DNA of 45,977 nucleotides, taken from positions 1 through 45,977 of the forward strand of contig JAHJJF010000034.1 in the NCBI GenBank assembly GCA_018823135.1, in the 5' to 3' direction. Each line of letters opens with the position of its first letter. Position 1 is the first letter of the stretch. The notes under the pieces were generated by a model, which worked only from the letters and a program-made list of their open reading frames with translations, searched no databases and was not told the origin of the DNA. Source of the stretch: Pseudomonadota bacterium. GTDB lineage: Bacteria > Desulfobacterota > Desulfobulbia > Desulfobulbales > CALZHT01. Both the position numbers and the translations under genes were made by a program. Below are positions 24,561 to 37,567 of the stretch, piece by piece.

Positions 24561-25322
24561 ATGAACAAAAAAGTTTTGATAATCTCCGCCGCACTTATTT
24601 CTCTTGTATTCATCGCTGCAGGCACAGCTCCGGCATTAGAGATAGTTCCGGATAGCTACACTTTTACACCCAGCGCAGGTTACCAGCACGAAGGGACTTG
24701 GACATATGACGACCCGGGGCTTTCCAAGCTTACCGACGGGATCTATGGTGAAGACAATTGGACTGTAAATCAAGGTGCCGAATGGGTTGGCTGGCAAGGG
24801 ATTGCTTGGGACGGCTCATACGTAGACGGTAAGATTACCAAGGAAAATTATGATTTTCGCTCAATTGAGTTGAATTTTGATTTTGGAGAAGTAGTCACTT
24901 TGAGTTCGCTGGTTTTAGGTATTAATCAGGATGCGCTGTTTACCTGGAATGTTGTTTTCCCCAGTTATATTTCCGCAGAAACAATATCTTCCACCCTGGA
25001 AACACCATATGATTCAGCCAATTCAGGGCCTAATCCTCTTGGAAACGTCTATAATAATGGTAGACGTCATGATGTGATTTTTAATTTTGACCCCATTACA
25101 ACCTCTACATTTTCAATCACTCTGAACAATGCAGACAATTTTGATAAGCTCCTGTGGGAAAATTTTAACGATGGGATGTTCTGGATTTTTGTTGATGAGG
25201 TTGATTTTTATGATAAGCATGTGAATCCGGTTCCTGAGCCCGCAACCATGCTTCTTTTCGGAACAGGCCTTGCTGGATTGGCTGGAGTAATCCGGAGAAA
25301 AACAAAGAATTTATTAAAATAA
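24561..25322 (+). CDS. PEP-CTERM sorting-domain protein
   Basis: This 253-aa exported protein begins with a signal peptide (MNKKVLIISAALISLVFIAAGTAPA) and ends with a PEP-CTERM tag: VPEPATMLLF, a transmembrane run GTGLAGLAGVI, then a basic RRKTK end. Exosortase removes such tags as the protein reaches the surface. The middle is rich in aromatic and Asn/Asp residues and looks like a beta-sandwich of secreted matrix proteins. AAGAGG precedes the ATG. The sigma-54 promoter fits PEP-CTERM genes elsewhere that are governed by the PrsK/PrsR two-component system. No exosortase lies in the window, but an exopolysaccharide locus of the associated type starts at 43.6 kb. Confidence 0.9.
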   Translation: MNKKVLIISAALISLVFIAAGTAPALEIVPDSYTFTPSAGYQHEGTWTYDDPGLSKLTDGIYGEDNWTVNQGAEWVGWQGIAWDGSYVDGKITKENYDFRSIELNFDFGEVVTLSSLVLGINQDALFTWNVVFPSYISAETISSTLETPYDSANSGPNPLGNVYNNGRRHDVIFNFDPITTSTFSITLNNADNFDKLLWENFNDGMFWIFVDEVDFYDKHVNPVPEPATMLLFGTGLAGLAGVIRRKTKNLLK

Positions 25323-34651: not shown

Positions 34652-35074
34652 ATGAAAAAGTGTATCCTCTTTCTCTGCACCGGGAATTCCTGCCGTAGTC
34701 AGATGGCTGAAGGCTGGGCCAGACATCTGCACGGCGGAAGTTTTGATATTTATTCCGCAGGGATTCAAAAACATGGAATGAATCCTTTAGCCGTCCGAGT
34801 GATGGCCGAGGCAGGCGTGGATATCTCAGAACAACAATCCAAGCTGATCGACGAGTTGCCTGTTAAGGATTTTGATCTGGTGATCACGGTTTGCGCCAAT
34901 GCCCATGAAAGCTGCCCGGTCTTTTCCGGAAAGGCAAAAATTGTGCATCATGGTTTTGACGACCCGCCGAAACTTGCCCAGACTGCTCAATCCGAAGATG
35001 AAGCGATAACTCACTACCGCCGCGTCCGTAACGAGATAAGGGATTACATAAAAGACCTGCACGAGCTTATATAG
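34652..35074 (+). CDS. arsC: Arsenate reductase (thioredoxin-coupled, low-MW phosphatase fold)
   Basis: This 140-aa protein reduces arsenate to arsenite. The P-loop CTGNSCRS (CX5R) is near the N terminus (Cys10-Arg16), with the second and third redox cysteines in VCANAHESCPVF. The length and cysteine spacing match ArsC of the thioredoxin-dependent type rather than a plain tyrosine phosphatase. It stands alone; no arsR, arsB or acr3 lies in the window. The palindromic operator just upstream suggests control by an ArsR encoded elsewhere. There is no good ribosome site before the ATG (AACTTTAAAA). Confidence 0.92.
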   Translation: MKKCILFLCTGNSCRSQMAEGWARHLHGGSFDIYSAGIQKHGMNPLAVRVMAEAGVDISEQQSKLIDELPVKDFDLVITVCANAHESCPVFSGKAKIVHHGFDDPPKLAQTAQSEDEAITHYRRVRNEIRDYIKDLHELI

Positions 35075-35275: not shown

Positions 35276-36631
35276 TTATTTTTCAGTTATTTCATAATTG
35301 CCTTGCGCATCAATCTGCACGACCGCATTTAGCACCTTGTTTTCATAGCCGTTTTTTCTCAGCGCTTCAGCTGCCATTCCGGCCATGATCCCGGTATTGC
35401 AATGGATAATGATTTCCTCGTCTTTGGGGATTTCACCAAGCCGTGATTCCAATTCGGCAAGCGGGATATTCGTCGCACCGGCGAGCTTTCCCTGTTTCGC
35501 TGTGGCGCGATCGCGGACATCGAGAATGAACTTGTCCGCAGGCATGCTTTTGGCAATGGCCTTAAAATCCCAGATACTGATTTCTCCTTTTGGGGTCTTT
35601 TTAATATAGGTTATGGCCGTGGGCATATTGCCGGGAATGATTTTCCCTTGTGATGCTGCCCAGCCTGCCACTCCATTATTCAGCGTGGAGGTGTTTTTGT
35701 ACCCCCAGCCGCGGACAAGATTAAACGCTTCAAGATCATTTGCTTCTGCAGAGTAAAGGATGATAGGTGCCGTTTTATCTGATGGGAACTTGTCCTTGGC
35801 GGTTGCAAGTTCACCTGCAGGTATTGAAACGGCATCAGGGATATGGCCTTGTAGCGCCACAGCCGGAGCCCTTATGTCAACCAGGACGAATGAAGCATCA
35901 TTTTTCATCATGCGCTTGATGAATTCCGGTTCGGAAACTAAAATGCCGCCGGCTTTTTTCCATTCAGGCATTCCGGCATGGAAAACACGGATGCTGGTAT
36001 AACCGAGCTTTTCCGCAAGACTTGCGGAAGAAGGACTCAAAGCTCAGGTAAAGCCCCCGCAGTAAAAAATGATTTGCATGTCCTTTTTCGGCGGGAGAAC
36101 CTCTGCCCCAAGTTCTTTGAGTTTGGGGAATGGAATTGACACGGCTCCGGGGATATGGCCGGAAGCAAAAGCATCAGGAGGGCGGGAGTCAATAATGATA
36201 ATATTTCCACCGGCTTTTTCTGGAGCGGTGATTTCCAGCATCTCGTCGACGGAAACAATTTGTTCTTCTGGAAGTTTGAAAGGTTGTTTGGCGGAGATCT
36301 TTGCTGCGATAGGTTCTTTTTCAGTGCCTTGAAAAGTAACGGCGATTTCCGTGTCTTTAGTGAGGGCATCAAGAGAGTCGGCACCGATAATTTCGGTGTT
36401 TTTGTCATATTTTACTATCCAGACGAGGGGGCCGACGTCGACCTGAACGGTCTGGAATTTTTCAGAATGCGAGACTTTTTTGCCGCGTATGACGTTTTGC
36501 TCGGCAATGTGGCACGTTTTGCAGCCCGGCATAATGTTGGGTTTTGAAGCAAAGGCGTGGGTTGTGTTCAACAGAAACCCGAGGGTGATGCCCATGACTA
36601 TGATGACATGGACTGATTTTTTTGAAAACAT
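35276..36631 (-). CDS. Rhodanese selenoprotein with haem c motif (Sec encoded by TGA at 36044-36046)
   Basis: Read through one in-frame TGA, this is a 451-aa exported protein with signal peptide (cleavage near AFA-SKP), a CxxCH haem c motif (C37, C40, H41), a beta-rich segment (about 50-115) and three rhodanese domains: about 125-226, 228-330 and 345-451. The first has a CGGFT-U-ALS loop (C191, U196); related proteins carry Cys at this second position. The second lacks its cysteine (YSAEAN). The third has HCNTG (C411). The frame and domain continue unbroken across the TGA, and a strong hairpin with bacterial SECIS geometry follows it. Cut at the TGA, neither half is a complete set of domains. 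AGGAGG precedes the ATG. Sec-containing rhodanese-like proteins have been reported in deltaproteobacteria. Likely role: sulfane-sulfur or selenium transfer in the periplasm, with electrons via the haem. Confidence 0.88.
36005..36046 (-). promoter_or_regulatory. Bacterial SECIS-like element with Sec TGA codon
   Basis: The TGA codon is 36046-36044. On the minus strand, GAGCTT (starting in the TGA) pairs with AAGCTC. Inside, TTCCGCAA pairs with TTGCGGAA around a GTC apical loop, with a 10-base bulge on the 5' side. The loop starts 22 bases after the TGA and begins with G, matching the geometry of known bacterial SECIS elements. Confidence 0.85.
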
Positions 36632-36751: not shown

Positions 36752-37231
36752 TTATTGACGATACGTTTCCCGCATGGACTCCATGGCGGTCCGCAATGTC
36801 TCAATGGCTGATATTACTCCGGCGCGCTGGCTCGGATCAATCTTGTTTAGCAGCTTGAAGTGAATCTCAAAGATGAACTCGTCAATTTCCAGCATTTTTT
36901 TAAGGCCCGTGGCGGTCAAGCTGATAAGTTTTACCCGGGCGTCATTGGGGTCGGCTGCACGGGCGACGAGTACTTTATTCACAAGGCCGTCAATGATAAC
37001 CGTGGCCCGGCTTTTAGCAACTTCGAGGCGGTTGGCTATTTCGATACAGGTAAGGTATTTCCGGTCCTCAAAAAGGAGAATGGTTTTAAGTTCTGAAACC
37101 AGCAGATCAAATGAATGGGCCTGATAAAAAATTCTCTCCTTGCAGCAGTCATGCATTTCCGCAAGGAGTTCTTGGAGTTTGTTGGTCTGGTAACCGGTCA
37201 GACGAAGATCCTGATCTTGTTTATCGTTCAT
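36752..37231 (-). CDS. MarR family transcriptional regulator
   Basis: This 159-aa winged-helix protein shows the MarR fold. A dimerisation helix is followed by CIEIANRLEVAKSRATVIIDGLVNKVLVARAADPNDARVKLISLTATGLKK, in which the recognition helix and the wing (DPNDARVKLISLT) are clear; C-terminal dimer helices follow. No strong ribosome site precedes the ATG. It lies 120 bp upstream of the rhodanese selenoprotein on the same strand and may regulate it. The ligand is unknown; Cys pairs (DCCKE, residues about 28-29) could sense redox state. Confidence 0.85.
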   Translation of the reverse strand: MNDKQDQDLRLTGYQTNKLQELLAEMHDCCKERIFYQAHSFDLLVSELKTILLFEDRKYLTCIEIANRLEVAKSRATVIIDGLVNKVLVARAADPNDARVKLISLTATGLKKMLEIDEFIFEIHFKLLNKIDPSQRAGVISAIETLRTAMESMRETYRQ

Positions 37232-37567
37232 AGTGGTAACTATTGTAATGGGTGTTTGAGGCTGCTGTCAAGATTCAAATTGGGTCTTGTCTTTTGTTGA
37301 AATGAGTGAGAATGAAGTATGGATGATTGACCTTGGCATATTCTTCGAGACCCGGAGTTGAAGGGTCTTCAACCGAGAGGGCCTGATGTGGAAGTTTCAA
37401 GAAATGCATACGGATTTTCATCGCAGTGATGCGTTTACTTGCTTTATTACCAGAAGCAATTATTATTGTTTTTGTGGGCGGTCTTAGTCAAGAGTATGCG
37501 CCTTAAGACCTGCAATAAACTTCTCAAATTTTTTACACACTATCCTTACGAGTCGAACCAATAAACC
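37232..37567. other. Intergenic region between divergent marR and queC
   Basis: 336 bp with two hairpins: AGACCC/GGGTCT (37348-37368) and GGTCTTA/TAAGACC (37480-37510, 17-base loop). I checked for a preQ1 riboswitch ahead of queC and could not fit one. Confidence 0.4.

Follow-up and report, generated by a model that had tools for sequence, protein, structure and literature searches.

The gene on the minus strand at 35276 to 36631 of the window (the whole stretch of 45,977 nucleotides analysed here) encodes a genuine selenoprotein, and its rhodanese type is already known. Taken with all its parts, as one polypeptide with a SECIS-directed selenocysteine (Sec) at residue 196, predicted export, a possible c-type haem, a beta domain, and three rhodanese domains, this reading is very probable, and for the central step, the insertion of Sec at UGA196, we are close to certain.

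The frame that runs from 36631 to 35279 contains only one TGA. If that codon (36044-36046) is taken as a residue, the frame continues in register on both sides of it and gives 451 residues, with U196, before a terminal TAA. The original prediction, made from the sequence, held that the TGA splits a rhodanese domain whose two sides share a frame, that it lies five residues past the catalytic Cys191, and that a gene caller would report two proteins. All three hold: the first stretch matched by the Pfam rhodanese model, residues 141-227, spans the TGA; the sequence around it reads FYCGGFT-U-ALSPSS; and under the standard code the gene becomes two open reading frames of 195 and 254 amino acids. 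The features of the locus are as follows.

35276..36631, minus strand: read-through coding sequence of a (predicted) exported three-rhodanese selenoprotein, 451 amino acids plus TAA (35276-35278); same-length homologues read through one TGA.
36044..36046, minus strand: Sec-encoding UGA (U196); homologues have U or C there, and C/U is invariant in a 34-sequence alignment.
36011..36029, minus strand: SECIS apical stem-loop, UUCCGCA-AGUCU-UGCGGAA, with the loop 21 nt after the UGA, from folding and covariation.
36005..36045, minus strand: lower stem, GAGCUU (36040-36045) with AAGCUC (36005-36010), from folding; specific to the window and not conserved.
36059..36061, minus strand: codon of Cys191, the catalytic Cys of rhodanese domain 1 and partner of Sec196, from its invariance in the alignment and its place in the active-site loop of the model.
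36548..36631, minus strand: predicted signal peptide, about residues 1-28 (...THAFA|S), from inspection of the sequence; the N-terminus has low pLDDT.
36509..36523, minus strand: CKTCH, putative c-type haem attachment motif, residues 37-41, from the sequence; 30 of 57 homologues have a CxxCH.
36287..36493, minus strand: N-terminal all-beta domain, residues 47-115, from the AlphaFold2 model.
35951..36211, minus strand: rhodanese domain 1, residues 141-227, holding C191-x4-U196, from Pfam and the model.
35645..35914, minus strand: rhodanese domain 2, about residues 240-329, without a catalytic Cys (position 294 is not Cys), from the Pfam stretches.
35324..35569, minus strand: rhodanese domain 3, about residues 355-436, with invariant Cys411, from profile matches.
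36752..37231, minus strand: MarR-type regulator directly upstream of the gene, as also in sister genus G007 (65% identity).
37242..37271, minus strand: sigma-70-like match TTGACA-18-TACAAT upstream of marR, a candidate promoter for marR and the rhodanese gene, from a consensus scan only.

No further convincing in-frame TGA was found elsewhere in the window. Genome-wide recoding of UGA was considered and is ruled out by surE, panE, nhaD, and nadA, which terminate in TGA and show UGA to be an ordinary stop elsewhere.

Relatives of the protein are common within the same order, found at E ≤ 1e-20 in 131 of the 194 genomes searched there, and each of the ten best matches, all from that order, reads through exactly one TGA. 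In the 30 loci retrieved from the order, position 196 is Sec (TGA) in 25 and Cys in 5. With 27 loci added from across the phylum, the count over 57 becomes 45 Sec, 10 Cys, and 2 with a shifted Cys (YCVGGCLSP and YDIGGCLSP, where the Cys lies one place off or is gapped in the pairwise alignment); no residue other than Sec or Cys was found in this place among the 57. Cys had indeed been expected here in relatives. The Sec homologues reach down to about 34-40% identity, and the frame past the TGA is always intact. Since TGA is exchanged only with Cys across the phylum, this is the classical signature of Sec. In the 34-sequence alignment, Cys411 is as invariant as Cys191 and the C/U of position 196, and S199 is nearly so. 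A separate search of genome contigs returned C-terminal rhodanese matches only, all from Bacteroidota.

Some of the Cys forms deserve mention on their own account. One of them (L035, genome G019) has TGT at the codon, a loop AGTGT at the position of the SECIS, and three inner stem pairs left; possibly it represents a recent change from Sec to Cys with a decaying SECIS. The two loci with shifted Cys (L120 and L127) come from small genomes and have either the loop YCVGGCLSP or, in YDIGGCLSP, an Asp where the catalytic Cys would stand. Their genomes (G508 and G471) also carry a Sec paralogue.

RNAfold gives -17.1 kcal/mol for the UGA with the following 54 nt (6 of 200 shuffled sequences fold as well) and -9.0 kcal/mol for the apical stem alone, whose GUC-containing loop, AGUCU, begins 21-22 nt past the UGA. 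Published limits for bSECIS elements are a spacing of 16-37 nt, a loop of 3-9 nt, a G at the first or second base of that loop, and an MFE of -7.5 or lower (PMC13188914). The hairpin of the window, with spacing 21, loop AGUCU, and -9.0 to -17.1 kcal/mol, lies within these limits, so the bacterial SECIS geometry originally proposed for it is borne out, both by the fit and by a covarying stem. Compared with 400 synonymous recodings, the window hairpin alone is weakly beyond chance (p about 0.07). Because this test of a single sequence is not significant, the case for a SECIS rests on comparative evidence.

That evidence is of several kinds. Within the order, the loop is spaced by 21 nt in 25 of 25 Sec genes. 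Across the phylum, 41 distinct Sec genes align without gaps, the G at loop position 2 (G26) being invariant. Bases paired in the stem switch together, between CG, UA, and GC at some pairs and between CG and AU at others, and they covary also in an alignment confined to the order. Double changes in the stem fill 26 cells, compared with 15.1 by shuffling, and the covariation score is 0.227, compared with 0.127 in shuffled alignments (0 of 500 as high) and no more than 0.099 when the register is slid. Also, the four inner pairs are kept in 45 of 45 Sec genes versus 1 of 10 Cys genes. The lower stem, which would take up the GA of the UGA codon in its pairing, is a different matter: paired cells in relatives amount to 86% in the upper stem but 35% in the lower. 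The two-part SECIS that had been proposed survives, then, in its apical stem, its GUC loop, and its spacing of 21-22 nt, all kept in relatives, while the form that includes the lower stem is rejected.

The machinery required to decode UGA as Sec was sought in the genome of the window, a draft of 157 contigs that is 95% complete. A tRNA-Sec scores 70.5 bits, above its cut-off, and is given the anticodon tca by ARAGORN. SelA is present (641.6 bits), as is selD, which itself contains an in-frame TGA, in the context TCGUAAK (G000:C52:6489-7415; L018:1399-2451, minus strand). The selD gene is the second in the genome to carry an in-frame TGA and so supports the decoding of Sec. The last component, selB, was not found in the 157-contig assembly, and hflX is likewise missing from the genome. 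In the sister genus, the order of genes is mrp, an MBL-fold gene, selB, and hflX. In the draft, mrp lies at C8:29625-30548, and contig C8, 30572 bases long, stops 24 bases after it (G000:C8:29625-30572). The contig thus breaks off at the very place that the MBL-fold gene, selB, and hflX occupy in the sister genus, which would explain the missing selB; an assembly gap is the simplest reading, on strong but indirect evidence. The check for selA, selB, selC, and selD that the original prediction called for is therefore answered in large part, with a Sec-containing selD as a bonus and a contig break at the syntenic place of the one gene not seen. Since tRNA-Sec, selA, and selD are present and a contig breaks at the site of selB, it is very likely that the genome decodes UGA as Sec. 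A few other genomes with the TGA form, G010 and G092 among them, are rather complete and show no selB at E ≤ 1e-70; in these drafts the gene is probably split or missing.

One might take the TGA instead for a nonsense mutation or a sequencing error in a decaying gene, as it stands alone, in a single draft genome, in a frame that is undamaged elsewhere. There is scarcely any chance of this: 45 homologues have TGA at the same codon, the frame after it is intact, and a hairpin lies 3' of it, so that the reading as a pseudogene is refuted by conservation across the phylum. Somewhat less remote, though still very improbable, is that the TGA is a true stop, followed by re-initiation of a second protein at a TTG six bases downstream; a mechanically derived open reading frame (35276-36040, 254 amino acids) does open with TTG right past the TGA. 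However, the break would then fall inside the active-site loop of a rhodanese, Cys replaces the TGA in one uninterrupted frame in homologues, and the genome contains tRNA-Sec, selA, and selD. Nor is the codon after the UGA a conserved start, for it is GCT, ACC, GGC, or GTG in relatives. On the strength of that last observation and of the uninterrupted Cys homologues, re-initiation is rejected in favor of read-through at UGA196.

What would the full-length protein look like? The Pfam rhodanese model (PF00581) matches it in three stretches with 143.9 bits, compared with a gathering threshold of 22.2, and with an E-value of 2.5e-42 for the whole protein. AlphaFold2, run on the family alignment, gives a mean pLDDT of 89.9 and, in order, a disordered N-terminus (the signal peptide), a short helix at CKTCH, the beta domain, and the three rhodanese domains. 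The stretch from C191 to U196 makes up a loop between a strand (186-190) and a helix (198-208), with pLDDT of about 90, and in the model this is the canonical rhodanese active-site loop, Cys191 and Sec196 being the first and last residues of C-G-G-F-T-U. The active site of domain 2 has no Cys, and that of domain 3 has the invariant Cys411. By its predicted signal peptide the protein is exported, and together with CKTCH this makes up the pair of traits, CxxCH and predicted export, by which a mono-haem c-type cytochrome is recognized. The motif, judged from sequence, may bind one c-type haem. CxxCH is absent from the remaining homologues, and a few begin with something like a lipobox.

Rhodanese selenoproteins have been sorted into five forms, the first of which has the motif UxxS and is represented by WP_010941598.1 (PMC13188914, PMC9312934); a passage of PMC13188914 credits form 1 to Zhang & Gladyshev 2005. 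The window protein resembles form 1 in being a PF00581 selenoprotein whose Sec precedes xxS (U196-A-L-S199), a placement made by the motif alone, and its type is probably in published selenoprotein catalogues already. The suggestion that the haem-tagged, three-domain form is new is therefore weak, as a UxxS rhodanese selenoprotein has been catalogued and CxxCH is found in about half of the homologues. Over domain 1, the best match to a curated selenoprotein model is to TsoB (NF045694, rhodanese/DsbD fusion-like), but its 57.8 bits fall short of the cut-off of 805; the window protein has no DsbD part and begins the motif with Cys, where TsoB has Sec. The spacing of UxxxxU in TsoB (form 5) does equal the five-residue spacing of C191-x4-U196, which by analogy suggests that Sec recurs at the second of the two positions in this loop. 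Rhodanese_LYCAU (NF041203, form 3) is also a rhodanese-related selenoprotein, but the window protein scores 55.6 bits against a cut-off of 115, and the spacing in LYCAU is CxU, not Cx4U. No curated NCBIfam model covers the family of the window protein at its cut-off. Among the best matches by sequence or fold are two tandem rhodaneses, the multi-rhodanese thiosulfate sulfurtransferase of P. aeruginosa (1yt8) and YnjE of E. coli (2wlr), but these match at the level of domains only, with a TM of about 0.2 for the whole chain, and have neither Sec nor a haem motif; the fold search gave nothing beyond such domain-level matches to rhodaneses.

In the window, the gene is surrounded by wecB, an arsC-like gene, marR, and queC. 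Neighbours vary among relatives, apart from MarR in the sister genus and an ext locus beside one Cys homologue; a conserved operon was sought among the homologue loci and not found, and the gene looks mostly solitary. The adjoining arsC-like gene (34652-35074, plus strand) belongs with the thioredoxin-type arsenate reductase-like/LMW phosphatase family, its score of 160.3 bits being just below the cut-off of 174.3. Farther off, the gene at 24561-25322 (plus strand) encodes a C-terminal sorting signal of the PEP-CTERM type, PVPEPATMLLFGTGLAGLAG, and a second PEP-CTERM protein is encoded close to tRNA-Sec (L001:17-583).

The ext locus is in genome G541, where a Cys homologue, 34% identical to the window protein over 426 residues (full length), lies beside homologues of extM, extN, extP, and extQ in divergent orientation; in Geobacter, the ext genes make up a cluster for selenite/tellurite reduction. 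The position of this homologue suggests that the window protein is akin to ExtH (GSU2940), the 49 kDa rhodanese-like lipoprotein of the extHIJKL cluster of G. sulfurreducens (PMC5877670; PMC6148476), which likewise is located outside the cytoplasm. ExtH differs in having a lipobox and has not been reported to contain Sec; the window gene lies outside an ext cluster, and its product has a signal peptide and CxxCH and no lipobox.

How might the protein work? SelB and Sec-tRNA(Sec) would read the hairpin 3' of UGA196, and selenocysteine would be inserted. Cys191 would accept sulfane sulfur, or some other chalcogen, and carry it as a persulfide in the manner of rhodaneses. Sec196 would then attack the persulfide, sulfide (or the reduced chalcogen) would leave, and a Cys-Sec bond would form, to be reduced again by the haem or by a thiol partner. 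We put forward this chemistry, reduction of a persulfide or chalcogen by a Cys/Sec pair, as a tentative hypothesis with somewhat less than an even chance of being right. A bolder form of it, in which the exported, haem-tagged triple rhodanese is a dissimilatory persulfide or metalloid reductase, the Cys-x4-Sec pair of its first domain wired directly to a c-type haem, so that a respiratory selenoenzyme would have arisen from the fold of a sulfurtransferase, is distinctly doubtful.

Perhaps the substrate is selenite or tellurite rather than sulfane sulfur, and the protein serves metalloid reduction in an outer-membrane electron conduit like that of ExtH. The orthologue beside the ext genes speaks for this, as does the impaired reduction of selenite and tellurite upon deletion of extI (PMC5877670), but that phenotype is known for ExtI and not for ExtH, and no ext genes were found near the window gene or the Sec homologues examined; a metalloid role is possible, though rather unlikely. 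Less likely again is that Sec196 and Cys191 act as a regulatory or chaperone-like redox switch, by exchange of the disulfide type with periplasmic proteins, and not as a sulfurtransferase. C-x4-U does resemble a redox pair, no catalytic Cys is present in domain 2, and the nearest curated selenoprotein model is the rhodanese/DsbD fusion TsoB, with its equal spacing; yet Cys191 and Cys411 occupy canonical catalytic positions of rhodaneses and are invariant.

Whichever chemistry applies, standard annotation renders this gene as two fragments, and the Sec of the active site is lost. Since the family is common across the phylum and yet without a curated NCBIfam model at cut-off, annotations may present many of its copies as broken genes. 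If it is true that the Cys-Sec pair reduces persulfides or metalloids outside the cytoplasm, then a type of rhodanese selenoprotein known from prediction would gain a biochemical role, and so would the rhodanese of ext conduits.
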